Source: Colwellia sp. (GTDB taxonomy: Bacteria; Pseudomonadota; Gammaproteobacteria; Enterobacterales; Alteromonadaceae). Taken from it: a stretch of DNA of 37,632 bases. How positions within the stretch are numbered: the stretch's first letter is position 1; the number at the start of each line of letters is the position of its first letter. The notes beneath the pieces were generated by a model. The model worked only from the letters and a program-made list of their open reading frames with translations, had not been told where the DNA came from and did not search any database. The DNA lies in the NCBI GenBank assembly GCA_026196955.1, contig JAPHTO010000157.1, positions 1-37,632 of the forward strand, given 5' to 3'. This document shows, in pieces, positions 3,001 through 23,789 of the stretch. Position numbers and translations under genes: made by a program.

Positions 3001-4623
3001 ATGGGGCCGCACTCAGTAGCTCAATATCTAGCACCAGGTCAATTAGAATTTGATTTAGTAGTAATGGATGAAGCATCACAAATTAAACCTCAAGATGCTT
3101 TAGGTACTATTGCTCGCGGTAAACAATTAGTTGTTGTTGGTGATCCAAAGCAGTTACCACCCACTAGCTTTTTTGATAAAGCCGTTGATAACGATGATGA
3201 AGACACCACAGCGATAGAGCAATCAGAAAGCATCCTCGATGTTTCTTTCCCTATGTTCAATGCTCGTAGGTTACGCTGGCATTATCGCTCGCGTCACGAA
3301 AGCTTAATTGCCTTTTCAAACCAAGAGTTTTACGACAGTAACTTAGTGGTATTCCCATCACCATCAAGTAAAAGTGATGAATTTGGTATTAAATTTACCC
3401 ACGTAAAAAGTGGTCGCTTTGTAAATCAGCATAATATAGAAGAAGCTAAAGTCATTGCCGAAGCAGTGAGAAACCATTTATTGCATCGCCCACATGAATC
3501 GTTAGGTGTGGTTGCTATGAGTTCAAAACAGCGAGAGCAAATAGAGCGTTGTGTGGAAGAACTATCTAAAGATGACCCGCAATTTAGAGATGCATTAGCA
3601 GATAACGCAAACACTGAAGAAGCATTGTTTTTGAAAAACCTAGAAAACGTGCAAGGTGATGAAAGAGACGTTATCTATATTTCATGCACCTACGGTCCAC
3701 AAGAAGCTGGTGCCGCACAAATGCCACAGCGTTTTGGCCCAATTAATTCAGCAGCAGGTGGTAGACGCTTAAACGTATTATTTACGCGTTCTAAAAAACG
3801 TATGCATGTATTCAGTTCGATGACCGAAGGCCACATTGTCGCATCAGAAACATCAAGCCCTGGTGTGCAAGCGCTGAAAAGCTTTTTAAGCTTTGCCCAA
3901 ACAGGTAAGCTTCAACAGCAAAAACATACTGGTAAACAGCCAGATAGTGATTTTGAGATTTCAGTGATGAACGCCCTAAAACTTGAAGGGTTCAATTGTG
4001 TGCCACAAGTTGGGGTTGCCGGTTACTTTATTGACCTAGCGGTACAAGATCCAGGACAGCCAGGGCGATATTTAATGGGCGTAGAATGTGATGGAGCAAC
4101 ATACCATTCGGCTAAATCTGCACGTGATAGAGACAGATTGCGCCAATCAGTATTAGAAGGGTTAGGCTGGAATATTAAACGAATTTGGTCAACCGACTGG
4201 TTCAAAAACCCACAGGCCCAATTAAAACCAATTATTGAAGCATTACATCAGCTAAAAACTGAAGTACCTGAAAATGTAGAAATAGAATCTGAAGTTGAAG
4301 AAATTGAAAATGTTGTCGAGCATGAGGTCCAAGTACTACATGAGCTAGATAAGTTTATCCACTCAGATGATTCATTAGAGGTAAAACTTCAAAAGTTTGC
4401 CGAAGAAGCTATTCCAAGTAACGATGAAGTGCCGTTAGCAAGTAGATTGCTAAGGCCAGCTATGATCGCAGCTTTATGTGAATTTAAACCTATTTCTAAA
4501 AGTGAATTTCTAGAAGTTATTCCGCCTTATTTACGCTCAGCAACATCAACAGAACATGGTAGATACCTTGAGCAAGTGTTGAATATTATTGCGGAAGATG
4601 AAGAAGAAAAACCTAACGTGTAG
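1..4623 (+). CDS. DUF4011-type SF1 helicase with C-terminal Vsr/MTES_1575-like endonuclease (5' end outside window)
   Basis: The frame is open to the first base of the window (first Met at 10), and the N-terminal DUF4011 region expected of this family is absent, so the gene probably begins upstream. Numbering from Met 10: Walker A GPPGSGKS at 85-92; a long charged, coiled-coil-like insert over about 170-950; Walker B DEAS near 1019; GDPKQLPP near 1045; HYRSRHE near 1095; QGDERDVIYIS near 1214; and GGRRLNVLFTRSKKR near 1250. These are SF1 (AAA_11/AAA_12) motifs. Residues 1314-1400 form a PD-(D/E)xK-like nuclease with D1342, E1359-x-DG, YH at 1365-1366 and the typical ending RIWSTDWF. DUF4011-helicase-Vsr proteins have been reported as single-gene anti-phage systems (Hhe-type). 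Its position just upstream of a type I restriction operon fits a defence island. The domain call is firm; the phage-defence role is inferred. Confidence 0.8.
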   Translation, partial: KLLMYLDLDPARWPQGASNIQNHSILQKFFAKQGIDNGNGSNTSFGEEYLIDKLDEVHNQYPLIDDADSSQHSALVDAIQGKDLVIEGPPGSGKSQTITNLIAAAISQGKKVLFVAEKMAALQVVKSRLSRAGLGDFCLELHSHKTQKKQVYENIAKRINNQDDYRYPSSIDIDIQMYEEKKEALTRYANLINSTWKNTGRTIHQIFSTATRYREEFANISLEDIKPDHINGQSFDEISSRRTTDELKKYADVFDEVKKQFGSEAELSDHPWFGVYNKSIQLFDCDDVCKLLVTWDSTIAALEQAAIPFNEQLNNDVVSDISSLKQVLADSNKIPKLKGTEYLQALSLITPQKENELTEYIKQYKATSKLLESLKELFELTVLNEGESLERFTKSNQNLQKECKSLELKLTNIFQQLQLLKTLRDVSLSLSDDLKTLTEQDNSLSDLLSPSYNGFLECKQYFEHINALDITLISRRHDLFDNELLDQHLANLEELLPKIQPLHKSLEQHFNLENLPTANELKEIDSIMKNAGIFCWFSSEWRAAKSKLLMYAKGLKPKVKKLVPFIASLTSYRELIDQLNKESAYQTLLQHEFKGIDTPIAELISLRAWYKDIRASYGVGFGKKVSFANSLFSIESELFKGLKHLAASKSLAEFEQFSQLFPQLESVFSHPLFNDKNTDLSADVGISSFVDELESDIKTLQSSSKKDFTISQLTKCIEQVSALLSTEHLLDENNIARELFDESTQLSIRNDSRSQLIKIESTLELSRAINLLESEPLKEYLLSNVSGEALQLITANLDNLSIAFNSYQLTLQEFSHKVDLDENAWFKGTKGKFTLLQERNNKAISQPRWLSTWVDFIRIRSSLSDKGLENLLRYTETGALDLENIEQIYVYSVFDILAREIINENQELAYFSGADQNAIRKQFREYDNKLKTLQQEKIAYQVAQTGVSNTVSGISSGKVSSYTEMGLINNEVNKKTRHAPIRQLVRRASKSLVALKPCFMMGPHSVAQYLAPGQLEFDLVVMDEASQIKPQDALGTIARGKQLVVVGDPKQLPPTSFFDKAVDNDDEDTTAIEQSESILDVSFPMFNARRLRWHYRSRHESLIAFSNQEFYDSNLVVFPSPSSKSDEFGIKFTHVKSGRFVNQHNIEEAKVIAEAVRNHLLHRPHESLGVVAMSSKQREQIERCVEELSKDDPQFRDALADNANTEEALFLKNLENVQGDERDVIYISCTYGPQEAGAAQMPQRFGPINSAAGGRRLNVLFTRSKKRMHVFSSMTEGHIVASETSSPGVQALKSFLSFAQTGKLQQQKHTGKQPDSDFEISVMNALKLEGFNCVPQVGVAGYFIDLAVQDPGQPGRYLMGVECDGATYHSAKSARDRDRLRQSVLEGLGWNIKRIWSTDWFKNPQAQLKPIIEALHQLKTEVPENVEIESEVEEIENVVEHEVQVLHELDKFIHSDDSLEVKLQKFAEEAIPSNDEVPLASRLLRPAMIAALCEFKPISKSEFLEVIPPYLRSATSTEHGRYLEQVLNIIAEDEEEKPNV

Positions 4624-4737: not shown

Positions 4738-6333
4738 ATGGCAACTGCTAAAAGCAAAAAGAGTAATACCGCAAACACCAATTTTGAAGAAACCCTATGG
4801 GATACCGCTAATAAACTGCGTGGTAGTGTTGAGTCGTCTGAATACAAACACGTGGTATTAAGTCTTATCTTTTTAAAATTTATCAGTGATAAATTTGAAG
4901 ACAAACGCCAAGCCTTAATTGATGGTGGCATGGGCGACTTTGTTGACCAAGTTGAATTCTACATGCAAGACAACGTGTTCTACTTGCCTGAGGAAGCTTG
5001 TTGGTCGTTTATTAAAAAGAACATGAAGCAAGACGACATTGCGGTAAAAATTGATACCGCATTGCATACGGTTGAAAAGAATAACCCTTCATTAAAAGGC
5101 GCATTGCCAGAGAACTACTTTAGCCGTTTAGGGCTTGTTACCAGTAAGCTTGCGTCACTTATCGATACTATTAACAACATCGACACAGCCGCTAGCGAAT
5201 GTGAAATGACTGAAGAAGATTTAGTTGGTCGCGTTTACGAATACTTCTTAGGTAAGTTTGCTTCAAGCGAAGGTAAAGGTGGTGGTGAATTCTATACGCC
5301 AAAATCAGTAGTAGCGTTAATTGCTGAAATGATAGAGCCATTTAAAGGTAAAATTTACGATCCGTGTTGTGGCTCAGGCGGTATGTTTGTGCAGTCGTTA
5401 AAGTTTATAGACAGCCATAAAGGTAATCGTAAAAACATCGCTATTTACGGCCAAGAGTACACGAATACTACCTATAAACTAGCCAAAATGAATCTCGCGG
5501 TTCGTGGTATTTCAGGTAACTTAGGTGAAGTCGCTGGAGACAGCTTTTTTAAGGACCAACACCCTGATTTAAAAGCGGATTTTATTATGGCCAACCCGCC
5601 GTTTAACCAAAAACAATGGCGTAGCGATAGCGAATTAGTAGACGATGGCCGTTGGGCTGGTTTTGATATACCACCAACAGGAAATGCTAACTATGCGTGG
5701 ATCATGCACATGATCTCAAAGCTGAGTGAAAACGGCACCGCAGGTTTTGTATTAGCGAATGGTTCAATGAGTTCAAATACTGGTGGTGAAGGTGCCATTC
5801 GACAAAAGATAATCGAGCAAGACTTAGTGGATTGTATGATCGCCTTACCGGGGCAGCTTTTCTACACCACACAAATTCCAGTGTGTTTATGGTTTATCAC
5901 CAAGAATAAGAAAGAAGATTCTGAAAGAGGCTATCGTAACCGCCAAGGTGAAACGCTATTTATTGATGCCCGTGAAATAGGCTCAATGATCAGCCGAACC
6001 AATAAAGAATTAACTACGGATGATATTGCAGGTATAACTCGCACTTATCATGCATGGCGTGGCGAGAAGACAGATGCCGATGGCAACGAATTAGAAAGTT
6101 ATGAAGATGTAGCTGGTTACAGTAAGTCAGCATCACTTGAAGACATTAAAGTTAATGATTTTGTATTAACACCAGGTCGTTATGTTGGCGCTGCTGAAAT
6201 TGAAGACGATGGCATTCCGTTCGAAGTAAAAATGAAAGAGTTAAGTAAAACCTTATATAGCCAAATGGAACAGGCAGAAGAATTAGATAAAGCGATTCGC
6301 CAAAACTTGGAGGTCTTGGGTTATGTCGAATAG
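4738..6333 (+). CDS. hsdM: Type I restriction-modification system, DNA methyltransferase subunit M
   Basis: 531 residues, the usual HsdM length. It transfers a methyl group from S-adenosylmethionine to adenine N6 at the site chosen by HsdS, as part of an M2S core. An N-terminal HsdM_N helical domain (about 10-150) is followed by the N6_Mtase domain. Motif I, DPCCGSGGMF, lies near 208-217 and binds AdoMet. Motif IV, NPPF, at 286-289 is the catalytic motif typical of N6-adenine methyltransferases. The start is supported by AAAGG ten bases upstream. It overlaps hsdS by 11 nt, so the two are translationally coupled. It is the first gene of a restriction operon that runs to about 21237. Confidence 0.96.
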   Translation: MATAKSKKSNTANTNFEETLWDTANKLRGSVESSEYKHVVLSLIFLKFISDKFEDKRQALIDGGMGDFVDQVEFYMQDNVFYLPEEACWSFIKKNMKQDDIAVKIDTALHTVEKNNPSLKGALPENYFSRLGLVTSKLASLIDTINNIDTAASECEMTEEDLVGRVYEYFLGKFASSEGKGGGEFYTPKSVVALIAEMIEPFKGKIYDPCCGSGGMFVQSLKFIDSHKGNRKNIAIYGQEYTNTTYKLAKMNLAVRGISGNLGEVAGDSFFKDQHPDLKADFIMANPPFNQKQWRSDSELVDDGRWAGFDIPPTGNANYAWIMHMISKLSENGTAGFVLANGSMSSNTGGEGAIRQKIIEQDLVDCMIALPGQLFYTTQIPVCLWFITKNKKEDSERGYRNRQGETLFIDAREIGSMISRTNKELTTDDIAGITRTYHAWRGEKTDADGNELESYEDVAGYSKSASLEDIKVNDFVLTPGRYVGAAEIEDDGIPFEVKMKELSKTLYSQMEQAEELDKAIRQNLEVLGYVE

Positions 6334-7744
6334 TATAAAGTTATCTGAATTATGCTCGGATATATCTTACGGCTATACTGCCAGTGCAGATAGCGAAGAA
6401 GTTGGTCCTAAGTTTTTACGAATAACCGATATACAAGGTGGAGTGGTCAATTGGGAAGATGTACCATTTTGTAAGATTGATTCTAAAAACTTGGAAAAGA
6501 ACCTATTAAGAAAAGGTGATATCGTTGTTGCCCGAACGGGCAATAGCACTGGTGAAAATTATATATTTGATTCAGAATATGATGCAGTTTTTGCCTCTTA
6601 CTTAATTAGGTTTAGAGTTAATCCAGAACTAGCGAATCCATATTTTGTTTGGCTGCAAATGAGAACGCAAACATGGTGCAGCTTCGTATCTGGTTCTAAA
6701 AGTGGTTCAGCGCAGGCAGGAGCTAATGCAAAAGTTTTAGGGTTATTTGAAGTAGAATTACCAGAGAGACATATCCAAGATAAAATAGTTGATATTGTCT
6801 TTGACTATTTCAATAAAATAGAACTAAATCGCCAAACTAACCAAACCCTAGAACAAATTGCGCAAGCGTTATTTAAAAGCTGGTTTGTTGATTTTGATCC
6901 AGTTTTCGACAACGCCCTTTCTAGCGGTTTGGCGGTTAACGACTTTCCTGAAGCCTTACAGAAAAAAGCACTTTCTAGACAACAGCAACGTCAACAAGTG
7001 CAACAATCAATCGCCACAGGTGAGCTTGAAGCTAAACCACTACCCGAAGACATCAGCCAACTCTTCCCAAGCGAATTTGAACAAACCGATGAACCATCAA
7101 TCGGCATCAACGGCTGGATACCTAAAGGGTGGCAGACAAACACATTGCACAACATGGTTGATACTATTTCTGACACTTATAAGTTAAAAGAAGTGGATGA
7201 AGTTATCTTTCTAAATACAGGTGATATAGAAAACGGGAAGTTCTTACACAACGATTTTTCACCCACAGAGGGACTACCAGGCCAAGCTAAGAAATCAATC
7301 TCCAAAGGCGACATTTTATATAGTGAAATTAGGCCTAAAAATAAGAGATTTGCCTTTGTTAATTTTGATGCAAAAGAGTACGTTGTATCAACTAAATTAA
7401 TGGTACTTAGAGCTAAAGAAGGTATCTCCTCATTACTGCCATATTTTATTTTAACTCAAGATAAAGTTGTAAATGAATTACAACATGTTGCAGAACACCG
7501 TTCTGGTACTTTTCCACAGATAACCTTTAAAGAATTGCAAAAAATACAGATGGTTTTTCCTGAATCATCTGAACTACAGGATTATTTTGTAGAGCAACAT
7601 TTGAAGCAAATCTTTAATAAAAGGCTCGCATCTATTGAACAAAGCGAGCAGCTAGAAAAGCTTAGAGATACGCTCTTACCAAAACTAATTTCAGGTGAAT
7701 TGCAGCTTCCAGCCGAAATTATAAATGCCGAGGTTCCTGCTTAA
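6323..7744 (+). CDS. hsdS: Type I restriction-modification system, specificity subunit S
   Basis: 473 residues with the two-half layout of HsdS. The first target-recognition domain covers about 1-165 and is followed by the conserved helical spacer, with the motif ALFKSWFVDFDPV near 185-198. The second target-recognition domain covers about 265-430 and ends in the second conserved helix, with LRDTLLPKLISGEL near 448-461. The protein sets the split recognition sequence for both methylation and cleavage. GGAGG lies just upstream of the start, inside the hsdM end. I see no second hsdS, inverted partial copy or recombinase nearby, so phase variation by hsdS shuffling is not suggested. The stop codon overlaps the start of the next gene by one base. 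Confidence 0.95.
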   Translation: MSNSIKLSELCSDISYGYTASADSEEVGPKFLRITDIQGGVVNWEDVPFCKIDSKNLEKNLLRKGDIVVARTGNSTGENYIFDSEYDAVFASYLIRFRVNPELANPYFVWLQMRTQTWCSFVSGSKSGSAQAGANAKVLGLFEVELPERHIQDKIVDIVFDYFNKIELNRQTNQTLEQIAQALFKSWFVDFDPVFDNALSSGLAVNDFPEALQKKALSRQQQRQQVQQSIATGELEAKPLPEDISQLFPSEFEQTDEPSIGINGWIPKGWQTNTLHNMVDTISDTYKLKEVDEVIFLNTGDIENGKFLHNDFSPTEGLPGQAKKSISKGDILYSEIRPKNKRFAFVNFDAKEYVVSTKLMVLRAKEGISSLLPYFILTQDKVVNELQHVAEHRSGTFPQITFKELQKIQMVFPESSELQDYFVEQHLKQIFNKRLASIEQSEQLEKLRDTLLPKLISGELQLPAEIINAEVPA

Positions 7745-8817
7745 TGAGTGACGTTTTGCTGTGGGAAAACATCAAGGATGACTTTGCACAAGCTAGCTTG
7801 ATAGTTGGCAACGGCGCAAGCATGGCTGTATCAACTAGCTTTGGTTATGACTCGTTATATGATGCTGCCGTTGAATTAAAACATATATCTAAACCAGTTC
7901 AAGATGTCTTTGATAGCTTTGAGGTTAATGATTTTGAGTTGGTTTTGCGTAGATTATGGCAAGCAAAATTAGTTAATACTGCATTAGGTATAGAGCATGG
8001 CAAAGTTGAAGCGTCATACCAACAGGTAAGAACGGCGTTGATTGCAACGGTTCGCGATGTTCATGTTTCTTACCAAGAAGCAGAAGAGCACTTAGTGCAT
8101 ATTTATAAGTTCATGCAGCCATTTAGTAAGGTGCTTTCACTTAATTATGATTTGATCGTGTATTGGGCTGCCATGCTAGGTAATCGGGAATTAGGCCCTT
8201 GGTTTAAAGATTGTTTTACACCTGATTACTTTTGCTCTGGCTGGCAAGAACGTGCTGAACCATATGGTGCAGCTAAAGGCGCTACTTTATTCTTTTACCC
8301 CCATGGAAATCTGGTCTTACACCATCACGAATTTTCAAGTGTTAAAAAAATCACTGCTAGAGCTGATGGTGACTTACTTGAAAGTATATTAGATAAGTGG
8401 GAAAGAAGAGATTTAGCTCCTGCTTTTGTATGTGAAGGTACGCAAGAATCAAAAGAACAATCTATCTCAAGCTGTGATTATTTAGAAAAAATATTTTATG
8501 AAGTACTTCCTGACGTAGGCCAAAATATTGTTATTTATGGTTGGTCTATGGCAGAACAAGATGAGCATTTACTGCAACAGATTAGTAAAAGTAAAGCTAA
8601 AAAAATTGCTGTATCAGTATATAAAGCTGATGAAACATCCATGGGTAGAGTTGAAAAACAACTAACTGACATTGGTGTTGAAGAGGTGGTTTTCTTTGAC
8701 TGTGAAAGCGCAGGTGCATGGAATATGCCATCTACAGAATTTTTAAAAGAACAAGAAGACGAACAGAAAGCAATAGCTGAAGCAATTCAAAAGCTATCGC
8801 TAAAAAAAGCGCATTAA
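7744..8817 (+). CDS. DUF4917 / SIR2-like protein, candidate NAD-binding effector
   Basis: 357 residues resembling DUF4917, a family with a SIR2-like Rossmann fold. Visible motifs are GNGAS at 22-26 (dinucleotide-binding loop), LNYD with N134 and D136 (matching the SIR2 TNxD motif), and PHGN with H187 (matching the catalytic histidine). A later region has EG followed by a helix and SSCDYL, then IVIYGWSMAEQDEHLL near 259-274, typical of the family's C-terminal half. The start codon shares one base with the hsdS stop, so its translation is coupled to HsdS. SIR2-like proteins in several anti-phage systems (Thoeris, DSR, SIR2-HerA) destroy NAD+; that this one does so is inferred from the retained N and H. 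No other enzymatic domain is seen. Confidence 0.75.
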   Translation: MSDVLLWENIKDDFAQASLIVGNGASMAVSTSFGYDSLYDAAVELKHISKPVQDVFDSFEVNDFELVLRRLWQAKLVNTALGIEHGKVEASYQQVRTALIATVRDVHVSYQEAEEHLVHIYKFMQPFSKVLSLNYDLIVYWAAMLGNRELGPWFKDCFTPDYFCSGWQERAEPYGAAKGATLFFYPHGNLVLHHHEFSSVKKITARADGDLLESILDKWERRDLAPAFVCEGTQESKEQSISSCDYLEKIFYEVLPDVGQNIVIYGWSMAEQDEHLLQQISKSKAKKIAVSVYKADETSMGRVEKQLTDIGVEEVVFFDCESAGAWNMPSTEFLKEQEDEQKAIAEAIQKLSLKKAH

Positions 8818-8819
8818 GT

Positions 8820-8894
8820 GGTTATTATATAACTAAGAGCAGAAGTTATAGAGTTGTTGAGTACTTAAAACTTAGCCTGAGACTACTAATAACC
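8820..8894 (+). promoter_or_regulatory. Structured intergenic region with nested inverted repeats
   Basis: GGTTATTA at 8820-8827 is perfectly complementary to TAATAACC at 8887-8894. Inside it, CTAAG at about 8833-8837 can pair with CTTAG at about 8872-8876. The whole could fold into one large stem-loop in the 122-bp gap before the kinase-helicase gene. I cannot tell whether it is an operator, a leader structure or chance in AT-rich DNA. No convincing -35/-10 pair was found. Confidence 0.3.
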
Positions 8895-8939
8895 AAAATA
8901 TATAAACCTGAAAGGTTAATTAAATAATAAGAAGTAAAT

Positions 8940-11900
8940 ATGGATATCAAATATTGGGACGGTGGCCTTGAGCGCCACGAAATCGATGCGATTAAAAAAA
9001 TTGAAAATGTATTAAGTACGCCTAATGTGCAAAAGCATAAAGGCAAAAGTTCAAATCAAGGGCAAGGGTTTGAAGCGCTTCAAGCGTTAAAGAAGCTTTT
9101 TAATGAGGGCTGGAAAGGTTATGCAGGTTTTCGCTTTATCAATAAGCATAAGCAAGGCGAAATAGATTTACTGATAGTAACTCACTGTAATATTTTAATT
9201 ATTGAACTTAAAGACTGGAATGGTAAGCCTGTTACTTCAAATCGTGGAAAATGGTTTTGGGGAAATGAAGATAGGGGCACATCCCCGGTAGAGCTTACTC
9301 GAAAGAAAGAATTTATACTTAAAAACTTGCTTAAACCATTTGCAGGAAAGTTTAAAAATGAAGGACGAGTTCCTCATGTACATTTTTTAGTAGTAATGAG
9401 CGGTGATAGTAACTTTTCTAAGCTACAAAAAAATGATTTAGCCCATACCTTAACGTTAACTGATTTTTGTAAATTATGTTCTAACGAAGGTCAGTTTAAT
9501 AAACGCTTTACTCCTCACCCAGATGCAAAAGTATTGCTGCAAGATATCCCACTGTTAGAAAAAAGCTTACTGCTTAATGATAAAAAAGTAGAAGCTAGAC
9601 CGTTATCAGTTGATGGCTGGTTAGGGCAAGAGCAAATTTTTGATCACCCGAATGAGGTTTATAAAGAGTACCTTGCTCAAAGTGAAGCCGACAAAAATGA
9701 TCGTGCCATTATCCGCAGCTGGGATTTTGATAAACTTTCAAATCATGATGCTAAAACCCCTGATGGACGTATAAAAATTGCCTCTCGTGAACGTGAAGTA
9801 CTCACAAAAATCAAAAGAGAAAATAGAGAGCTGTACGAGCATTGTGTTTCTTCACTAACAATACCGACTAAAGAGAAGATAACCTCGCAGTACAACGAGG
9901 TTGTTGAGCTTCCTCATGGTCATGAGCGCCTTAATGACTTTATCGCTACCTATGGTGAAAACTTAGCCATTGATGAGCGTGTTAACTTGGTTAGAGTGTT
10001 AATAGCTCGCTTTGCAGATTTGCATCAACTACAACTAGCTCACCGAGATATCGGTAAACACAGTATTTGGTTAAGTACTGGGCAGCGTGTTGCGCTTTCA
10101 AACTTTATTTCGGCATTTGCTCGCAAGAAAGAAACCGTAGGTGATATTCGTGATGAACTATCGGTATACAATCAAACTACACCTTCGCTATCTCCCTATC
10201 ATTACGATGTTTCTCGCCTTGCTATCATTGCGTGGTCAATTCTTGAAGCTAAACGATTAACACCTGCGCTTGAAAAATCGTTAGAGGTGGAGCTTTCACA
10301 ATCTGATGCGTGGTATGGCGACACGTTATTAAAAGCATTCAACGGTAAAGACTTTGCTAATGCTGGTGAGTTTTTAGATGTATTGGTTGAACAAGAACCA
10401 AGTAAAGAAGCCGCTTTTAGCTTTTCAACGCAAGAGCTAGAACGATTTGTTAAGGCTAGCAAAATAAGCAAATTGCATCCTGAAGTAGAAGAAATTTCTG
10501 CAAACGATTCAAAAGAAGTATATAAGGCCGACACCGGTGTAGTGAAAGTTTGGAATAATATTAACCCTACTGACATAAATGCCGGTCTCGGGCTTCGCAC
10601 GTTATCGTTTTTAGAACGAGTCGAAAAATTGCAAAGCCTTAATCTAAGTTTTATCCCCACCGTTGTTGATTACGGCATTACCGCACGAGATAGCTCATTG
10701 TATTTGGTGAGTGAATGGATTGAGGGTGAAGCTTTAGATCCTTATCGAATGCGTAACCGCAGAAATGATATTGTAAAAAGCTTAGTAGCCCATATTGAGC
10801 ATATGCACTCATTAGGCTTTGCTCATGGTGACTTAAAACCTGAGAACGTTATTGTTAATAAGCATGGTGACGTTTTTATTATTGATGTTTTAGATTTTCA
10901 TCATGATGCTGAAGAGCTGCTTAATACCGAATATAGTCCGGCTGATATCGATAATAGCTCAGCTTTTGAACGTGATAACTATGCAGTAATGAAGATAAGT
11001 GCAGAGTTACTAGAAATTGACTGGGGCACTGAGAGCTCAAACTTTGAAGCAGTTAGCCAAGCTATTATTCATGAGCTTGAAGACGTTGATTTTGGCTTTA
11101 GGGAATTAACTCGTTTTAAAGATGCTGTTTTAAATCCAGAAAAAACAACACAACCATCGGTTGAAACGATTGATATTGAAATAGGAGGAGCAAGAGAAAA
11201 TTTTGATCCTCTAACAATATACCCTGATAACGGTAAGTTATATGTTTCGATAGAAGAAAGTGATAAGAAAGCTTCTGGTTTGGTAATGAGCTTTTGTGGA
11301 TTAGGTGGCTTCTTTAGGCTTTTCTTCGATCAAGTAAGTTTCACTTTTGAACATGGCTTAGCGCCTAAAACAAGAGATAGTATTTCTCCTAGAGATATCG
11401 AAAATGCTGTTTTAGAACTTCCTTTTGCTATTCGTATTACTCAAGGTAGAGCAAGTAATCTAGAAGTGCTCAATAGACGTATTCGACAGTTTTATAGTTT
11501 CGAAAATGCAGTTAAACAATTTCAGTTAAAACAGAGAAAAGTAGCGCCGCTTTCAATAGAACAACCCAACGATATTATTGAGGATGAGATCAGTGTTGAG
11601 CCGATATCGACCAAAGAGCTTTGGAAGGCAATTCTTAAAACAGAGACTGAATCTCATCCATATGTAGAGCTTATTGGTGAGCCTAGAACACATAAGGATG
11701 ATAAAGACATTCTAATCCTGCCATATGAAGCTGAGAAAGATCCACTTGATGGTTTTACCGCTAAAGATCAAGTTGAAGCGATTATCGTTAATGATGAAGA
11801 AGACTACTTTATTGGCGAAGTTAATTTATCAGCCTCAGGATTGAATAGAGTGCAGTTATCTCGCTATTCGAATAGAGCTCACCGATTAACTGAAGAAGAT

Positions 11901-13877
11901 ATCATTTTCTTTCGTAGTAAAGCGGATAAGTCTTCTTTTAATAAGCGAAAGAACGCATTAACTCGTATTCTTGAACAAGATTCAGTTGTTGAAAACTTAT
12001 CAGATTATTTTGAGCCTGACTGTGACATAGCGCCTACAGACTATGATTTAACTGTCACCGATGAAGACTTTAAACGTTATGACCGAAAAGATGATAACGG
12101 TAATGCTATTAAGCTTAATGAGAAGCAACGAATAGCCTTTCAAAAACTTCTAAGGTTTGGCCCACTTTCAATGCTGCAAGGACCACCTGGTACAGGTAAA
12201 ACTGAGTTTATTGCTGCTTTTGTTCATTACCTAATTGAAAAACAAGGCACTGAGCGAATTTTATTGGTAAGTCAGTCACATGAAGCTGTAAATACTGCTG
12301 CTGAACGAATTCGCAAACACTGTGGCCGTTTAAAAACGGATCTTGATGTGGTGCGTTTTAGTCGAAGTGAATCAACTATTTCTCACTCTTTACGTGATGC
12401 TTATTCTGACAATATTGTTAGTCAAAAAGTAGAACAATTCGAAACTCAATTAAAATATCGAGTGTTGAACCTAGCTAAGTCATTAAAAGCTCCTGCTGAA
12501 TATTTAGAAGCCTATTTAACCTTAGATAAGCAAATCCTTTCACACATTATCGAGCAACAAAATGCATTAATAGCGCTTGATGATGAAGAGTTAGTTGCTA
12601 AACAGAAGAAAGAGCTTAAAAAACAAATTGGTGAAAGGAAGTCATTAATTAACAGTAGACTGCCACAGAGTATACGTACCAACAAAGATTGGCATGATAA
12701 TTTGAGCGAGGTTCGTGAAGGCTTAATTAAAGATTTAAACCATGAGTTTGCTATTGAACCAAATATCTCTAGCTCAGTTCAACGACTAGTGAAACTGTCG
12801 AAAGATATGATACGACTTATGCAATCTGGCAATGCCAATATAGATGAATTTTTGGCTCGTTCAAAGCAACTGGTTGCAGGTACTTGTGTTGGTATTGGTA
12901 ACTGGAATATTGATATAGCAAGTAATCAATATGACTGGGTCATTATTGATGAAGCGGCTCGTTCTATAGCAAGTGAACTTGCTATAGCTATGCAAGTAGG
13001 TAAACGAGTGTTACTGGTGGGCGATCATAAGCAATTACCTCCGCTTTATACCGACCCTCACAAAAAAGCGTTAGCAAGACATTTAGGTATTCAATCATCG
13101 AATGATATTGATGAATTAATTGAAAGTGACTTTGCTCGTGCGTTTGAAAGTGATTATGGAAAACAAGTAGGTGCAAAACTACTTGTACAATATCGTATGG
13201 CTCCTGCTATTGGTACTTTGGTTTCTCAGTGTTTTTATGATGGTGAGTTAGAAAATGGTGAGAGAAATATCCCTGATATTTACCGTGATGTGCCCAAAGC
13301 ATTGAGTTCAGTTGCAACGTGGCTTGATACATCGAATTTAAATAAAAAAGCACATCATCAAACGGGGTCTGGTCGAAGTATTTACAACGATGCTGAAGCT
13401 GATGCTATTGTCGATTTGCTTAAACAGGTTGATGAAAACGAGGCTTTTGTTCATTCATTACTAGAGCAAGTAAAAGAAGGTGAAGCTGCTATTGGTGTTA
13501 TTTGTATGTACGCCGAGCAAAAAAGACGTATTAGACAAAAAGTTAAAAAAGCCTCTTTATCTGATGAACTAACTAAATTATTGAAAATTGATACTGTAGA
13601 TAGTTATCAGGGTAAAGAGAATCGCGTGATTATTTTATCGGTAACCCGTTCAGAGCAAAAACAAGGTGCAGGATTTTTAAAGCTACCAAACCGAATTAAT
13701 GTTGGCCTTTCAAGAGCTATGGACCGTTTGGTAATTGTTGGTGATAAGAGAATGTGGCAAGGAAAGAATAGCCAATTGCCATTTGGTAAGGTTATTAAGT
13801 TTATGGAAGAAAACGCTAGTGAAGACTTGTATCGCTTTGTAGGTATTACAACCAAGAAATTTAAGAAGGCGGTATAA
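8940..13877 (+). CDS. NERD nuclease - pseudokinase - Ser/Thr kinase - SF1 helicase fusion protein
   Basis: 1645 residues. The N-terminal NERD domain has D76 and E89-L-K91, a PD-(D/E)xK nuclease signature. A first kinase-like domain has HRDIGKHS at 368-375, but the loop Asn is Ser and the DFG position reads SNF (387-389), so it is probably a pseudokinase. A second kinase domain, about 505-700, keeps K536, HGDLKPEN at 629-636 (catalytic D631) and D649 in DVLDF, so it may be active. Then comes an SF1 helicase of AAA_11/AAA_12 type: Walker A GPPGTGKT at 1081-1088, DEAA at 1337-1340, GDHKQLPP from 1361, and DSYQGKENRVII followed by NVGLSRA near the end. NERD plus kinase recalls PglW of BREX type 2, but that protein has no such helicase. 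It probably senses or processes DNA and phosphorylates a partner; this is inferred. The next gene starts 5 nt later. Confidence 0.85.
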   Translation: MDIKYWDGGLERHEIDAIKKIENVLSTPNVQKHKGKSSNQGQGFEALQALKKLFNEGWKGYAGFRFINKHKQGEIDLLIVTHCNILIIELKDWNGKPVTSNRGKWFWGNEDRGTSPVELTRKKEFILKNLLKPFAGKFKNEGRVPHVHFLVVMSGDSNFSKLQKNDLAHTLTLTDFCKLCSNEGQFNKRFTPHPDAKVLLQDIPLLEKSLLLNDKKVEARPLSVDGWLGQEQIFDHPNEVYKEYLAQSEADKNDRAIIRSWDFDKLSNHDAKTPDGRIKIASREREVLTKIKRENRELYEHCVSSLTIPTKEKITSQYNEVVELPHGHERLNDFIATYGENLAIDERVNLVRVLIARFADLHQLQLAHRDIGKHSIWLSTGQRVALSNFISAFARKKETVGDIRDELSVYNQTTPSLSPYHYDVSRLAIIAWSILEAKRLTPALEKSLEVELSQSDAWYGDTLLKAFNGKDFANAGEFLDVLVEQEPSKEAAFSFSTQELERFVKASKISKLHPEVEEISANDSKEVYKADTGVVKVWNNINPTDINAGLGLRTLSFLERVEKLQSLNLSFIPTVVDYGITARDSSLYLVSEWIEGEALDPYRMRNRRNDIVKSLVAHIEHMHSLGFAHGDLKPENVIVNKHGDVFIIDVLDFHHDAEELLNTEYSPADIDNSSAFERDNYAVMKISAELLEIDWGTESSNFEAVSQAIIHELEDVDFGFRELTRFKDAVLNPEKTTQPSVETIDIEIGGARENFDPLTIYPDNGKLYVSIEESDKKASGLVMSFCGLGGFFRLFFDQVSFTFEHGLAPKTRDSISPRDIENAVLELPFAIRITQGRASNLEVLNRRIRQFYSFENAVKQFQLKQRKVAPLSIEQPNDIIEDEISVEPISTKELWKAILKTETESHPYVELIGEPRTHKDDKDILILPYEAEKDPLDGFTAKDQVEAIIVNDEEDYFIGEVNLSASGLNRVQLSRYSNRAHRLTEEDIIFFRSKADKSSFNKRKNALTRILEQDSVVENLSDYFEPDCDIAPTDYDLTVTDEDFKRYDRKDDNGNAIKLNEKQRIAFQKLLRFGPLSMLQGPPGTGKTEFIAAFVHYLIEKQGTERILLVSQSHEAVNTAAERIRKHCGRLKTDLDVVRFSRSESTISHSLRDAYSDNIVSQKVEQFETQLKYRVLNLAKSLKAPAEYLEAYLTLDKQILSHIIEQQNALIALDDEELVAKQKKELKKQIGERKSLINSRLPQSIRTNKDWHDNLSEVREGLIKDLNHEFAIEPNISSSVQRLVKLSKDMIRLMQSGNANIDEFLARSKQLVAGTCVGIGNWNIDIASNQYDWVIIDEAARSIASELAIAMQVGKRVLLVGDHKQLPPLYTDPHKKALARHLGIQSSNDIDELIESDFARAFESDYGKQVGAKLLVQYRMAPAIGTLVSQCFYDGELENGERNIPDIYRDVPKALSSVATWLDTSNLNKKAHHQTGSGRSIYNDAEADAIVDLLKQVDENEAFVHSLLEQVKEGEAAIGVICMYAEQKRRIRQKVKKASLSDELTKLLKIDTVDSYQGKENRVIILSVTRSEQKQGAGFLKLPNRINVGLSRAMDRLVIVGDKRMWQGKNSQLPFGKVIKFMEENASEDLYRFVGITTKKFKKAV

Positions 13878-13882
13878 CTGTT

Positions 13883-15268
13883 ATGGAAAACACAACGATT
13901 GAATTTAATGAAATAGATTATATTGTGCCTACTGAAACATTTGGCATTGAATATTCCTATTTAAGTAAACAAGGCTTTCCGTTCATAAAAGAATTTTTGC
14001 TTAAAGCACTTTATATTTCACCGCTTTCTAAGTTTGAACTGTCTTCATTTTTTGGCTTTAACCAACGTGAATTGGCTGCTGCTATTGAAGAGCCTATCAG
14101 TAAAGGTGAAGTTGCATATTCTGAAGAAGGAAAGCTATTTTTAACCACATTGGCAAAAGGTTACTTTTCATCATTAGATGATAAGCCTATGATTGAGAAA
14201 CCACGGTCTAGAACTTCTTCTGTTTCATTTGAATTAGCTGGGTTTAATAAGGTTAAAAACCAGCATGAAAATTGGCACACAGGTCTTCGTTTAAGTGTTA
14301 ACCATGAAGTACAAAGTTTAAGTGAGCAGCATGCAATAGCTATGTTCACTAAACACTTTCAGCGGCTAGTAGAAAGAGGTGAATTGGGGGTTATTAAAAC
14401 TCATGATAACTCGTTACCTAGTCTGTATTCAGTTGATAAAGTGTCTCGAAAGAAAACTATCGCTCACAGGGTTAAGCGTAAGTTTGAGATAGATTTAGAC
14501 AGCCGAATTAAGCCTTTTTACGTTGATAAACTTTACGAAAATGATGAGGCGATAACACAGGCTATTGCAAAAGAAACTGACAACATTAGATTGGGTGACA
14601 ACATAGATAGCATTGCTGCCGCATGGGATGCTCTTGAAGATATGTCTGTTAGTCGTTTTATCAAAAATGACAGTATCGACTTTCGAGGAATGGCCGCTGA
14701 AATGGTAGCTGGCTCATTTGATAAACCGTATGAGCTTTTGGTTGGCCCATTATATGGTAGACAACCTTGGGCTGTTGTTGAAAATAATTTAAAGAAACTC
14801 AAGCCTCATAAAAAGACGCAAAAACCAAGAGAACTATGCTGGTTTGGTGCTAATACTCGTTATTGGGGAATGAGTGAAGGTTTTACTAAAGCTAAAGATA
14901 GCCTGAATAACTATAAAACTAATGGAAAAAATACCAATTATAAGCTGAAGGTGTATTTACCTTGTGATGACAATCAAAATGTTGAAAGGCAAGCTGGTAG
15001 AGCATGGAAGCACAAATTAGGTAGCATTGAGTTTTGTGAAGGTATTAGAAACGGCTTATTTGATGGTAGCGTTGAGGTTTTACTCTTAGATAATGAGTTT
15101 GCTGCGGTAAGTTATCACTTATCACTACCTGATCTTAGCCCTGTTCATATACCTCTAGGTTTTTTCACCACAGACCAAAAGTTAGTTGCCAAAATAGCTC
15201 GCGTTGCTAATGAGTTTTTGAAAGGCTCGGTATCTCACGGTAAACCGAATTTAATCGGTAAATTATAA
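13883..15268 (+). CDS. Uncharacterised partner of the kinase-helicase (461 aa)
   Basis: I do not recognise this family. The start lies 5 nt after the kinase-helicase stop, so the two are almost certainly co-translated and probably work together. The first 90 residues are helix-rich, and the stretch SKFELSSFFGFNQRELAAAIEEPISKGEVAYSEE around 50-85 (described, not all conserved) looks like a winged-helix DNA-binding fold. The C-terminal half contains a mixed alpha/beta region with WFGANTRYWGM near 313-323, then alternating strands near 350-430 ending in SPVHIPLGFF. No nuclease, ATPase, membrane or zinc motif is visible, and there is no HKD motif, so a phospholipase D-type nuclease is not supported. 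Composition matches the neighbouring island genes. It is a real gene with unknown function, and its fixed place between kinase-helicase and hsdR is the best clue. Confidence 0.8.
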   Translation: MENTTIEFNEIDYIVPTETFGIEYSYLSKQGFPFIKEFLLKALYISPLSKFELSSFFGFNQRELAAAIEEPISKGEVAYSEEGKLFLTTLAKGYFSSLDDKPMIEKPRSRTSSVSFELAGFNKVKNQHENWHTGLRLSVNHEVQSLSEQHAIAMFTKHFQRLVERGELGVIKTHDNSLPSLYSVDKVSRKKTIAHRVKRKFEIDLDSRIKPFYVDKLYENDEAITQAIAKETDNIRLGDNIDSIAAAWDALEDMSVSRFIKNDSIDFRGMAAEMVAGSFDKPYELLVGPLYGRQPWAVVENNLKKLKPHKKTQKPRELCWFGANTRYWGMSEGFTKAKDSLNNYKTNGKNTNYKLKVYLPCDDNQNVERQAGRAWKHKLGSIEFCEGIRNGLFDGSVEVLLLDNEFAAVSYHLSLPDLSPVHIPLGFFTTDQKLVAKIARVANEFLKGSVSHGKPNLIGKL

Positions 15269-15294: not shown

Positions 15295-18200
15295 ATGAAG
15301 TTTACAGAAGCACAATTAGAAGCAGCTATTATAGAGTTACTCGGTGATCAAGGATATCCATACACCTCTGGTGCTGACCTTTCGTCAACTGATGGTTCTA
15401 GGCAACCTGAGCAAGTGCTCATTAAAGATGACTTAAGAACCTATTTAGCTAATCGTTATGCTGCTGATGAAATCACCACAGGTGAAATTGAAAGCATTAT
15501 TCTACAGCTCGAAACCTTGCCTGTAGGTGACTTATATGAAAGTAATAAAACCTTCTGTAAATGGTTAAGTGATGGTTTTTTATTAAAACGTGAATCAGGT
15601 AGTAAGCCAGGTGAAGCTTCTAAAAAAGATTTATATATTCAGTTGATTGACTACGAAGAAGTAGCGGTTGCTCAAGAATCATATGAAGCGTTACCTATGG
15701 TAGCTGAGCAAAGCGTATCTTATGTTGCAACAACACAGCACAACATTTTTAAAATGGTTAATCAGCTAGAGATTGACAGTCCATCAGCTGATAACTCCAT
15801 GCGTATTCCTGATGGTATTTTATATATAAATGGCTTACCTGTGGTGGTGTTTGAATTTAAGAGCGCTATTCGTGAAGAGCAAGCCACATTACATCATGCC
15901 TACGAACAATTAACCGTTCGTTATCGCCGTGATATTCCCCAGTTATTTGTTTTCAATGCACTCTGCGTTATTAGCGATGGTGTAAATAATAAAATGGGCA
16001 ATGTATTTGCACCTTATGATTTTTATTATGCATGGCGCAAGGTTACTGGTGATGAATCAATAGAGCAAGATGGTATTAATGGCTTGCATACTATGTTGCA
16101 GGGCTTGTTTGATAAAGAACGTTTGTGTGATGTTATTCGTAACTTTATTTACTTCCCTGATAAATCAAAAGGTGAAGTGAAAATAGTTTGTCGTTATCCA
16201 CAATATTACGCTGCTAGAAAGCTCTATGAGAACATTAAAAAAGAGCGAAAGCTACCTTCTCTTGATGGTAAAGGCTGTGAAGGCGGTAGTGGTAAAGGCG
16301 GAACTTATTTTGGTGCAACGGGCTGTGGTAAAAGCTTTACCATGCAGTTTTTATCCCGCTTATTAATGAAAAGCGTTGAATTTGAAAGCCCGACCATCGT
16401 ATTAATAACTGATAGAACAGATTTAGATGATCAGCTATCCCAACAATTCTCAAATGCTAAAAGCTATATTGGCGATGATCATATTGTTAGTGTTGAAAGC
16501 CGCGACCAACTAAGACAACTACTTAAAGGCCGACAAAGTGGCGGTGTCTTTTTAACGACTATTCATAAGTTTACCGAAGATATAGAAGTATTAACTGAAC
16601 GTACTAATGTTATATGTATTTCAGATGAGGCACATCGTAGCCAGGTTAATTTAGACCAAAAGGTGGTAATTACTGAGAAAGGCCCTAATGCCGGAGTGAG
16701 GCGCACATACGGCTTTGCAAAGTATTTACATGACTCATTACCTAATGCGACCTTTGTTGGTTTTACTGGCACGCCTATTGATGCCACGTTGGACGTATTT
16801 GGTAAGGTTATTGATGCTTATACCATGTCAGAGTCGGTTAAAGATGAAATAACGGTTCGCATTGTTTATGAAGGCCGTGCGGCAAAAGTATTACTTAACA
16901 ATGCCAAGCTTGAAGAAATAGAAGCCTATTACAAGCAATGTGAAGATTCTGGTAGCAATGAACATCAAATAGAAGAAAGTAAGAAAGCTACTTCGAGTAT
17001 GAATTCGATTTTGGGCGATCCTGATCGTATCCGTACGCTTGCTAAAGATTTTGTTGAACACTACGAAGGACGCATCAATGAAGGCTCGACCATAAAAGGT
17101 AAAGCCATATTTGTAAGTAGCTCTCGTGAGATTGCTTACCTGTTTTACCAAGAACTTGAAGAGTTGCGTCCACAATGGTTTGAAATACTGGAGTGCGAGA
17201 AAGGCTCAACGTTAACTGAGCAAGAGCGTAAGAAAATCAAACCTATGGAGCGTGTCAAAATGGTTATGACACGTGGTAAAGATGATCCAGAAGCCTTGTA
17301 TAACTTACTAGGAACTAAAGAGTATCGCAAAGAGTTAGACCGTCAATTTAAGAATGATAAATCTAATTTCAAAATCGCTATTGTCGTAGATATGTGGCTT
17401 ACCGGTTTTGATGTACCGTTTCTTGATACGATTTACATTGATAAGCCATTGCAAAAACATAACCTTATTCAAACCATTTCTCGTGTTAACCGCAAGTTTT
17501 CAGGCAAGCATAAAGGTTTAGTGGTTGATTACATCGGTATTAAAACTGCGATGAATAAAGCGTTAGCGCAGTTCTCAAAGTCAGAAGAAACTAACTTTGA
17601 AGATATCAATCAGTCGGTTATTGCTGTTAAAGATCATTTAGATCTGCTTAACCGCATCTTCCATAAATTCGATTCCTCGCCTTATTTCACTGGCGAGCCA
17701 GTGGCACAGTTAAATTGCTTAAATAATGCGGCTGAATTTGTACTATCTGTAGGCAAACTTGAGAAACGATTTATGGCGTTAGTTAAGCGCCTTAAAGCGG
17801 CTTATGATGTTTGTTGTGGTAGCGAGAAGCTATCTCAACAAGAACGTGATTTTATTCATTTCTATCTTGCTGTGCGCTCTATCATCTACAAGTTAACCAA
17901 AGGTGAAGCTCCTGATACCGCACAAATGAACGCTAAAGTACGAGAAATGATTGCAGAGGCGCTTAAAAGTGATGGTGTAGAGGAAATATTCAAACTTGGC
18001 AATGATGATGGTGAGATTGATATTTTCGATGAAGACTATCTTGCCAAAATTGGCAAGATAAAGCTGCCCAATACCAAGATAATGCTGCTACAAAAAATGT
18101 TAGCAAAAGCCATTGATGAAATGAAAAAGGTTAATCTTGCTCAGGGAGTCGATTTCACTAAACGTTTTAAGGCTTTAGTTGAAAAGTACAATGAGCGAAA

Positions 18201-18597
18201 AGAAGAAGATGTATTGGTGAGCGAAGTATTAGAAGACTTCTCTGATGAGATCATCAATATGTTTACCGACCTTAAAACAGAGATGGATTCCAACGATGAT
18301 TTAGGTATTAGCTTTGAAGAAAAAGCCTTTTACGACATCTTAAAATCGTTGGCTGTTAAGTATGACTTTACCTACCCAGACGATAAATTGATTGAGTTAT
18401 CACAAGCGGTAAAAGAAGTTGTTGATGATAAAGCCAAATATACCGACTGGAATAACCGTGACGATATTAAGGCTGAACTAAAAGTTGACTTAATCATGCT
18501 GCTCGCCAGGTTTGGCTACCCACCAGTAAGTCGAGACGAAGTGTATAAAGAGATTTTTGCGCAGGCTGAGAATTTTAAGAAAAACAGAGGTGTGTAA
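15295..18597 (+). CDS. hsdR: Type I restriction enzyme, endonuclease and translocase subunit R
   Basis: 1100 residues, EcoKI-like HsdR. It uses ATP to translocate DNA and cut it when the HsdS site is unmethylated. The N-terminal nuclease has D173 and E187-F-K189 (PD-ExK). The SF2 motor has Walker A GATGCGKS at 340-347, DEAH at 444-447, FTGTP near 490, and the motif VI region with QTISRVNRKF near 727. Just before Walker A there is a short glycine-rich segment (about 321-337) that may be an extra loop. The C-terminal 300 residues are the helical region that binds the M2S core. It is separated from hsdS by three other genes (7.5 kb), which is unusual. Its stop shares one base with the next start codon. 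Confidence 0.95.
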   Translation: MKFTEAQLEAAIIELLGDQGYPYTSGADLSSTDGSRQPEQVLIKDDLRTYLANRYAADEITTGEIESIILQLETLPVGDLYESNKTFCKWLSDGFLLKRESGSKPGEASKKDLYIQLIDYEEVAVAQESYEALPMVAEQSVSYVATTQHNIFKMVNQLEIDSPSADNSMRIPDGILYINGLPVVVFEFKSAIREEQATLHHAYEQLTVRYRRDIPQLFVFNALCVISDGVNNKMGNVFAPYDFYYAWRKVTGDESIEQDGINGLHTMLQGLFDKERLCDVIRNFIYFPDKSKGEVKIVCRYPQYYAARKLYENIKKERKLPSLDGKGCEGGSGKGGTYFGATGCGKSFTMQFLSRLLMKSVEFESPTIVLITDRTDLDDQLSQQFSNAKSYIGDDHIVSVESRDQLRQLLKGRQSGGVFLTTIHKFTEDIEVLTERTNVICISDEAHRSQVNLDQKVVITEKGPNAGVRRTYGFAKYLHDSLPNATFVGFTGTPIDATLDVFGKVIDAYTMSESVKDEITVRIVYEGRAAKVLLNNAKLEEIEAYYKQCEDSGSNEHQIEESKKATSSMNSILGDPDRIRTLAKDFVEHYEGRINEGSTIKGKAIFVSSSREIAYLFYQELEELRPQWFEILECEKGSTLTEQERKKIKPMERVKMVMTRGKDDPEALYNLLGTKEYRKELDRQFKNDKSNFKIAIVVDMWLTGFDVPFLDTIYIDKPLQKHNLIQTISRVNRKFSGKHKGLVVDYIGIKTAMNKALAQFSKSEETNFEDINQSVIAVKDHLDLLNRIFHKFDSSPYFTGEPVAQLNCLNNAAEFVLSVGKLEKRFMALVKRLKAAYDVCCGSEKLSQQERDFIHFYLAVRSIIYKLTKGEAPDTAQMNAKVREMIAEALKSDGVEEIFKLGNDDGEIDIFDEDYLAKIGKIKLPNTKIMLLQKMLAKAIDEMKKVNLAQGVDFTKRFKALVEKYNERKEEDVLVSEVLEDFSDEIINMFTDLKTEMDSNDDLGISFEEKAFYDILKSLAVKYDFTYPDDKLIELSQAVKEVVDDKAKYTDWNNRDDIKAELKVDLIMLLARFGYPPVSRDEVYKEIFAQAENFKKNRGV

Positions 18598-22354: not shown

Positions 22355-22424
22355 ATGTAACCATAAGTGGTATGATTAGTTAGACTAATAAATTTATCGT
22401 AGTAAAAAATTGATTGAGGGTGAA

Positions 22425-23264: not shown

Positions 23265-23289
23265 TAAATTTAAGACTTAAAATTTATTA
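23262..23289. repeat. Perfect 10-bp inverted repeat at the moxR stop codon
   Basis: TAATAAATTT at 23262-23271 and AAATTTATTA at 23280-23289 flank AAGACTTA. The repeat begins at the stop codon itself. It is all A/T in the stem, so it is a poor terminator; it may be part of a recombination site. Confidence 0.5.
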
Positions 23290-23412
23290 CATTTTCGGAC
23301 AAAAATGAGAAAATTAAGACTAAAATGAAATTTATAAAAATCAGCGACTTTCAAGTCGCTCTAACCCTTAACATTATTGGAATAGGAACAGTTAAGTCTT
23401 ATTTTAAGTCTT
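23271..23412. repeat. Cluster of AAGACTT-type direct and inverted repeats at a gene-duplication junction
   Basis: TAAGACTTAAAAT occurs at 23271-23283, and a variant TAAGACTAAAAT at about 23315-23326. In the opposite orientation, ATTTTAAGTCTT lies at 23401-23412 and TTAAGTCTTATTT just before it, overlapping. AAGACTTAAAAT and ATTTTAAGTCTT form a 12-bp inverted pair bracketing about 140 bp. Between them, GCGACTTTCAAGTCGC (23344-23359) is a tight palindrome. The cluster lies between the full moxR and the truncated moxR, as expected of the ends or crossover sites of a small element. Confidence 0.5.
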
Positions 23413-23434
23413 TATTTTTTCCACGTAGTACAGC

Positions 23435-23789
23435 AATACCCGATGCCTTTCTCAGACGCTGTTTTTTCCACTATATAAGTTTCCCCGAAAAAGCTGAAAT
23501 GCAAGCCATTGTTGATGTACATTTTCCTAATATTAAACAAAAGCTGTTAGATGAAGCCTTAGCGCTATTTTTTGATTTACGTGATATTCCAGGATTAAAG
23601 AAAAAGCCTTCTACTTCTGAGTTAATAGACTGGCTAAAGCTTTTGTTAGCGGAAGATATTTCTCCTGAAACTTTGCATGAAACTAGAAGAAATAAGGTTA
23701 TTCCTCCTTTGCATGGCGCCTTATTAAAAAATGAACAGGATGTGCATTTATTTGAAAAGTTAGCTTTTATGCATCAAGGCCGTCGCTAG
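23435..23789 (+). pseudogene. 3' fragment of a second moxR gene
   Basis: Homology to the complete MoxR upstream starts abruptly at the IPDAFLRRCFFHYI motif (matching residue about 165 of the full copy) and runs to the natural end, roughly 74% identical over 114 residues by eye. Walker A and Walker B are missing, so it cannot be an active ATPase. An ATG at 23325 gives a 154-codon reading frame, but its first 37 codons are repeat DNA unrelated to MoxR. Codon use is less AGA-rich than the upstream copy and closer to the following VWA gene, which starts 15 nt later. I read this as the resident gene's remnant. Confidence 0.8.

Follow-up and report, generated by a model that had tools for sequence, protein, structure and literature searches.

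Why should a type I restriction-modification operon hold three further genes between its specificity gene and its restriction gene, and do these genes form one device or several? The question is raised by a stretch of 37,632 nucleotides from Colwellia sp. (hereafter the window; compared loci and genomes carry L- and G-numbers), in which hsdM and hsdS are separated from hsdR by an insert of three genes. The answer that we favour, and consider probable, is that the hsdS-hsdR interval is a dock for other defence genes and that the insert consists of two separable modules, a single gene for a SIR2-fold protein of the family DUF4917 and the Mokosh type I pair MkoA and MkoB, which would have arrived stepwise and would work in layers. 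Sequence comparison provides the evidence, by showing what the modules are, that they occur apart, how sharp their junctions are, how varied the cargo of related operons is, and that scars lie upstream of hsdR. The parts of the operon, all on the plus strand in the window's list of open reading frames (ORFs), are as follows.

4738 to 6333, plus strand: hsdM, type I methyltransferase subunit (Pfam N6_Mtase 362 bits, HsdM_N 78 bits).
6323 to 7744, plus strand: hsdS, specificity subunit (Pfam Methylase_S).
7744 to 8817, plus strand: DUF4917 / PDC-S21, SIR2-fold predicted NADase of 357 amino acids (PF16263 290 bits, PDC-S21 352 bits).
8818 to 8939, plus strand: gap of 122 nucleotides from DUF4917 to mkoA; homology with copies of MkoAB that lie away from hsd genes starts at 8916-8922, just 5' of the MkoA start.
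8940 to 13877, plus strand: mkoA, 1645 amino acids, NERD nuclease-like, kinase and SF1 helicase (PADLOC MkoA 1885 bits; Pfam NERD, Pkinase, AAA_11, AAA_12).
13883 to 15268, plus strand: mkoB, 461 amino acids, second Mokosh type I protein (PADLOC MkoB 346 bits); homology with the hsd-free copies stops at its stop codon.
15295 to 18597, plus strand: hsdR (Pfam HSDR_N, SWI2_SNF2, T1RH-like_C); homology among differently loaded relatives resumes at its start codon.

The domains of HsdM, HsdS and HsdR are all present and their reading frames are complete. The hsdS stop codon and the DUF4917 start codon overlap by one nucleotide (TAATG at 7742-7746), five nucleotides (13878-13882) part mkoA from mkoB, and 26 part mkoB from hsdR; the sequence-only reading, which had described three same-strand genes with a 1-nucleotide overlap and a 5-nucleotide gap, was accurate in this, though it passed over the 122- and 26-nucleotide gaps. 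Since each of the three has full-length relatives, they are not chance reading frames. A search of the genome to which the window belongs (3.97 Mb, 167 contigs) with N6_Mtase returned the window hsdM and one other, partial match of 27 bits.

What, then, are the inserted genes? The second had been called a NERD-kinase-helicase, as its Pfam domains bear out, and the third an unknown protein of 461 amino acids. The latter is a real gene but not an unknown one: its product matches the PADLOC profile for MkoB (PDLC03923) practically full length, over residues 1-454, and it lies directly downstream of a gene whose product matches the MkoA profile (PDLC03921) over residues 1-1637. By these profile matches the second and third genes (8940-15268) encode MkoA and MkoB, the two proteins of the already described anti-phage system Mokosh type I, both being nearly full length and in the same gene order, and the earlier statement that no described system with this combination was known is overturned for two of the three genes. 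E74, D76, E89 and K91, H629, G630, D631 and N636, and the sequence GPPGTGKT at 1081-1088 are invariant in nine aligned MkoA sequences, that of the window included; such residues are typical of active NERD, kinase and helicase motifs. A second kinase-like stretch, read from the sequence by eye, precedes the kinase domain and has neither the usual Lys nor the usual Asn. Because the N-terminal half of MkoA matches PglW and MAD6, we considered MADS and BREX type 2 as well, and rejected both: MAD2, MAD5 and MAD6 reach 48, 37 and 118 bits against NCBIfam cut-offs of 720, 400 and 460, and PglW reaches 96 bits against 990, in its N-terminal part only.

The model of MkoB is poor (predicted local distance difference test, pLDDT, 32 from two sequences), and a search of the PDB with its sequence returned nothing below an E-value of 0.09. 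No PLD domain was matched by Pfam in MkoA or MkoB; a PLD-like domain is given for Mokosh in a review table (PMC10952713). In viral contigs no MkoB was found, and the MkoA search there returned six distant helicases. The MkoB profile matched 17 of the 369 genomes of a class sample, our own with a full-length protein and 16 with weak partial matches that were not counted. As side observations on this pair, MkoAB follows a set of methyltransferase, DEAD helicase and GIY-YIG genes in E. coli ET565 (L026:4692-17263), a Providencia plasmid (L021) has a similar set adjoining MkoAB in the opposite orientation, and an IS3-family element interrupts mkoA on a Vibrio casei plasmid (L020:11812-17995).

The first gene had been called SIR2-like, which is right by fold, though Pfam names the family (PF16263) just DUF4917 and PADLOC lists it as the candidate PDC-S21. 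An AlphaFold2 model of the window protein, made from 40 aligned sequences, has a pLDDT of 89.7, and its best match in the PDB is the Sir2 subunit of SIR2-HerA (E 7e-10, TM-score 0.55). All 30 PDB matches at E < 0.001 are SIR2 proteins of defence systems, namely SIR2-HerA, PsSIR2, KomC, SPARSA, ThsA and AVAST5. N134 in an NYD motif and H187 in an HG motif are invariant, in 14 of 14 and in 40 of 40 aligned DUF4917 sequences (the viral rows L206, L223, L227, L228 and L233 were excluded from the DUF4917 alignment A3), and the two motifs align with those of the SIR2 protein of SIR2-HerA (E 0.0094). Asn and His are the catalytic residues of SIR2 proteins. With its modelled SIR2 fold and its catalytic residues kept, DUF4917 is predicted to be an NADase, and the earlier view of a defence insert within a type I operon that includes such a protein is upheld. 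The fold is common to the effectors of SIR2-HerA (Nezha), KomC, ThsA, AVAST5 and SPARSA; unlike these, DUF4917 stands alone, without HerA, Ago or an attached sensor domain, and its sequence is only 10-16% identical to known SIR2 effectors. The PDC candidate families are reported to come from a guilt-by-embedding screen (PMC12988326, PMC10855318), and PDC-S21 itself was probably first found as an embedded gene; no paper using the name PDC-S21 was found in the open PMC literature.

In order to see how often the three genes travel together, we searched 394 sampled genomes from the host order, our own included. MkoB was present in 12 of these genomes and DUF4917 in 14. MkoAB lies inside an hsdS-hsdR interval in two of the 12 (our own and G526), in G488 it stands just behind another type I operon (order M-S-R-MkoA-MkoB), and in nine no hsdM, hsdS or hsdR was recognised in the fetched 18-20 kb of surroundings, so that the window copy, nested between DUF4917 and hsdR, differs in position from most. 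DUF4917 lies inside the interval in 5 of its 14 genomes (our own, G526, G721, G556 and G477, the last with a truncated copy). We found all three genes together in the window, in G526 (L173, order M-S-235-amino-acid gene-DUF4917-MkoA-MkoB-R) and in Catenovulum maritimum (L064), where MkoAB is 94-95% identical to that of the window and DUF4917 just 35-36%. Elsewhere the parts are exchanged: a DRT4 reverse transcriptase precedes MkoAB-R in G404 (L057) where the window has DUF4917, and G721 (L181) reads M-S-DUF4917-R, with DUF4917 as sole interval gene and without Mokosh. The single integrated device proposed by the sequence-only reading is not supported by this distribution. That reading had also allowed that the insert would be a chance collection if the genes rarely occurred together or were as common away from hsdMSR; Mokosh was largely found to occur separately in this way, DUF4917 only in part.

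The borders of the modules are sharp. MkoAB copies without recognised hsd genes, those of G484 (L170), G446 (L171) and the Vibrio casei plasmid (L020), are 89.9-93.9% identical to the window in nucleotides; their homology with it starts at 8916-8922 and ends at 15268, the MkoB stop codon, and their flanks are common to the three. Hsd-free copies of DUF4917 likewise exist, in L179, L180 and others. L181 is 86% identical to the window in nucleotides over 7658-8787 and homologous again from 15294. In L063, hsdM is 90% identical in nucleotides and the sequence from the hsdR start codon onward 95% over 6 kb; its S differs (38%), and its interval holds an unrelated gene of 1089 codons. In 15 relatives picked by hand from the closer loci, identity to the window has a median of 0.25 at positions -20 to -1 of hsdR and of 0.87 at +1 to +30. 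The HsdM and HsdR proteins of L063, L057 and L085 are 90-98% identical to ours, their HsdS proteins, compared over the whole length, 36-38%. As L085 and L131 agree in M (96%), R (99%) and cargo (97%) and have S proteins only 40% identical, hsdS and cargo turn over separately.

How general is such loading? We surveyed 80 named loci and six stretches from five genus or order relatives, all picked by HsdR similarity; 18 of these 86, L064 among them, were dropped for want of a recognised M, S or R, which left 68. Forward ORFs of at least 80 amino acids stand between hsdS and hsdR in 46 of the 68 and between hsdM and hsdS in six. The 68 include near-duplicates, L058 and L071 being one locus and four loci coming from Acinetobacter tandoii; with the duplication removed the counts are 45 and 6 of 64. 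The cargo comprises 109 forward and 11 reverse ORFs. Proteins below 150 amino acids were removed before clustering, and the 99 forward ones that remained fall into 56 clusters. We tested 38 proteins against PADLOC (37 of the 99 and one from L064; hand-picked, mostly one per cluster; threshold 1e-6 in the first two scans and 1e-10 in the others), and 28 matched a defence family, among them DRT4, Dsr2, KwaB, GajA and GajB (Gabija), ThsB, Tmn, SoFic, HEC-01, HEC-02, OLD/AriA-like proteins and several PDC families. Plasmids were also looked at: of the two HsdR relatives opened there, among the best 40 of 2827 records, one on a Klebsiella plasmid belongs to an M-S-R operon without cargo, and one on an E. 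coli plasmid is preceded by a 3-kb stretch without listed genes.

Two groups among the surveyed cargo may be recorded separately. The largest cluster has 12 proteins (L113:8472-9998 and 11 relatives in 11 loci), mostly from Bacteroidota and mostly encoded directly before hsdR; two members scanned with Pfam carry Schlafen AlbA_2 and HATPase_c_4, and one member tested with PADLOC was unmatched. A gene for 1089-1091 amino acids lies in the hsdS-hsdR interval of L063 (3171-6440), L072 (6729-10004) and L084 (6735-10004); the L063 protein is 90% identical to that of L084 and 47% to that of L072, and those of L063 and L072 have no match in PADLOC or Pfam, which makes it a candidate unknown defence gene.

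Traces of the insertions can be found at hsdR itself. Among 85 searched loci (L142 was left out), four hold truncated copies of the hsdR 5' end upstream of the full gene, five copies in all: about 31 codons in L064, 20 and about 31 in L065, 53 in L098 and 82 in L060. Those of L064, L065 and L098 start at the hsdR start codon. The scar of L064 stands where the window hsdR begins behind MkoAB; beyond it come a Fic-type gene and the complete hsdR. These scars are most simply read as the result of stepwise insertion at the 5' end of hsdR, the newest module lying beside it. In L065 (5829-13336), three cargo blocks are parted by two hsdR 5' remnants and followed by the full gene. Two further candidates were set aside. 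In the 122-nucleotide gap of the window, 25 nucleotides with 19 identical to hsdR (p 0.023 against shuffles) are not claimed as a remnant, as other stretches of hsdR score as high or higher, and the hsdR-like stretch in the L064 counterpart of that gap is not significant (p 0.30); a candidate in L104 (E 0.038, 24% identity) looks like chance.

Put together, the operon of the window would have been built by recombination events that brought the modules in one by one and left hsdR whole: DUF4917 would have entered behind hsdS, the state seen in L181, and MkoAB would then have entered between DUF4917 and hsdR; the Fic gene of L064 would be a later addition, in a different lineage, between MkoAB and hsdR. 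All genes may be expressed from one transcript that starts before hsdM, DUF4917 being translated right after hsdS. The plus strand of the intergenic gaps from hsdS to hsdR showed no terminator-like site, and spacing, strand and these terminator-free gaps fit a single transcript without proving it. HsdMSR would cut unmethylated phage DNA, and Mokosh and the SIR2 protein would each answer a trigger of their own, the latter by breaking down NAD. Mokosh would act by destroying phage transcripts, in line with the degradation of viral transcripts reported for it (PMC11291487).

Several points weigh against this account. Cargo is optional, because in 22 of the 68 loci the interval lacks forward ORFs; 10 of the 38 tested proteins have no PADLOC match, and among the 28 matches that of L068 is weak and the best one for L106:6350 covers about 50 residues. 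The loci were selected by HsdR similarity and the tested proteins by hand. The L060 scar, unlike the others, belongs to a direct repeat of 486 bases (96.5% identity) that includes 241 bases 5' of hsdR. Loss in L181 would also explain its Mokosh-free state, and the promoter scan was uninformative (22 sites against 47 in shuffles). All functions are assigned from families, and for DUF4917 the structural matches are convincing by E-value, with a TM-score that is merely moderate (0.38-0.59 by query length among the first 30). Because the full combination recurs, in G526 and, with a diverged DUF4917, in L064, the three genes may not be wholly independent: DUF4917 and Mokosh occur jointly in two genomes of the order sample, our own included, against about 0.4 expected if independent, numbers too few to decide. 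Finally, DUF4917 is found after hsdS at a higher frequency than would be required of a simple passenger.

The last point bears on the possibility, in our judgement unlikely, that DUF4917 is a true type I accessory, a SIR2-fold effector bound or held off by HsdM2S that fires on unmethylated or disturbed DNA, with Mokosh as a separate passenger. A phylum sample of 378 genomes includes 13, our own among them, that carry DUF4917; the gene follows hsdS directly in 3 of the 12 others (G889, G941 and G922, the G922 copy being cut by contig ends). In both samples together DUF4917 is hsd-linked in 7 of 25 non-own genomes, directly after hsdS in five and one gene further in two. In a tree of 25 DUF4917 proteins (rows L188, L247, L249 and L252 excluded), the nine hsd-linked rows need three label changes against 7.6 in shuffles, placing hsd-linked proteins on at least three branches; the link has therefore been gained, or lost, more than once. 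The pairing is seen beside distant type I families too (L245, with the order S-DUF4917-M, L242 and L251), which makes a tie between DUF4917 and HsdS the most interesting alternative, and the spacing is tight, with a 1-nucleotide overlap in the window, L064 and L181 and one nucleotide between the genes in L182. Against this, the remaining 18 genomes, some of them with short contigs, showed no recognised hsd gene in the vicinity, and homologues stand on three opened plasmids without listed hsd genes. Adjacency alone is to be expected in an interval that takes many unrelated genes, and the operon tolerates loss of DUF4917, as the hsd-linked L190 copy is truncated (220 amino acids). Somewhat more plausible, though still doubtful, is a combination in which the hsdR 5' end is a recurrent dock, modules joining within its first 20-80 codons, older ones being capped by scars and the youngest lying beside hsdR, and in which DUF4917 is a SIR2 effector tied to HsdS, with the type I methylase as sensor. 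If that were true, recurrent docking at hsdR would make the operon a layered record of acquired defence.

It seems to us very improbable that the insert acts as a single backup device under the control of HsdMS methylation, which would license or block its firing, as the sequence-only reading suggested. The common strand, the short gaps and the presence of all three genes in three genomes would suit it, but MkoAB is a described system found mostly elsewhere, DRT4 can stand in for DUF4917 and DUF4917 can occupy the interval alone; licensing of Mokosh by methylation found no support. Least credible of all is passive accretion, by which recombination would have piled up genes in a defence island with neither common expression nor benefit of position. 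The hsdR remnants and the fast exchange of cargo do show frequent recombination; still, 109 of the 120 cargo ORFs are oriented like hsdR and the S-R interval is loaded far more often than the M-S interval, and a random pile-up is not expected to preserve strand and the hsdR frame. The docking interval with two separable modules remains our preferred reading.

Two further genes matched by PADLOC adjoin the operon.

10 to 4623, plus strand: Hhe-like helicase-nuclease, C-terminal part (PADLOC Hhe 1519 bits, profile positions 361-1900 of 1911; MTES_1575 nuclease domain, AAA_11/12).
18597 to 19661, plus strand: PDC-S11 candidate with weak NucS_C similarity (PADLOC PDC-S11 436 bits), overlapping hsdR by one nucleotide.

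Since the contig begins at window base 1, the lack of the first 360 profile positions in the Hhe-like gene probably reflects the assembly end. This gene is upstream of hsdM in L085 and L057 too, and the PDC-S11 candidate is common to the window and L063 (98%). Downstream of the island, 22410-24977 holds genes for an AAA ATPase and for a protein weakly similar to VWA (CoxE-like), parted by a small gene, and a cluster of tRNA-Val, tRNA-Asp and tRNA-Val at the right edge of the window (37123-37406) is a possible island boundary.

An arrangement of this kind is already known, because the hsdS-hsdR interval has been published as a defence hotspot. In enteropathogenic E. coli, DarTG2 is reported between hsdS and hsdR in the RRDM island, a potential recombination hotspot where another gene pair occupies the site in four genomes (PMC12255303). 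As in the window, a complete foreign defence module lies there between hsdS and hsdR; the RRDM cargo differs in being a toxin-antitoxin pair, in an operon led by rptR with TAGCTA sites. We rejected an RptR-regulated operon of that type for the window: the 114 nucleotides between the Hhe-like gene and hsdM are too short for a gene of 79 codons and contain no TAGCTA. TgvAB, described as embedded in a type I cluster on Vibrio VPI-2 and as able to work without HsdR (PMC11411939, which also cites RloF between hsdR and hsdS), is a two-gene defence system within a type I operon, like MkoAB here, but a type IV modification-dependent restriction system, whereas the window cargo is Mokosh and a SIR2-fold protein. 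Second systems inside type I loci, often PrrC, are also reported (PMC12629846). With the DarTG2 and TgvAB cases the window has in common a complete same-strand module between hsdS and hsdR, and modules that also occur free of hsd genes. Among the papers listed from the open PMC literature we found none on Mokosh within an hsd operon and no description of DUF4917 as hsdS-hsdR cargo; DUF4917 is named in one of them. New here are these two cargoes, the recurrence of DUF4917 directly or one gene after hsdS, and the hsdR scars, for which the literature was not searched.

A puzzling three-gene insert is thus resolved into known parts and a general rule for this family of type I operons, by which complete defence systems are swapped in the interval and hsdM and hsdR stay much the same. 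The hsdS-hsdR interval becomes a place to seek new defence genes, such as the 1089-amino-acid family, and the hsdR scars offer a means to work out in what sequence defences were acquired. The repeated pairing of DUF4917 with hsdS, for its part, lends itself to a direct test of whether a restriction enzyme may cooperate with an effector predicted to deplete NAD.

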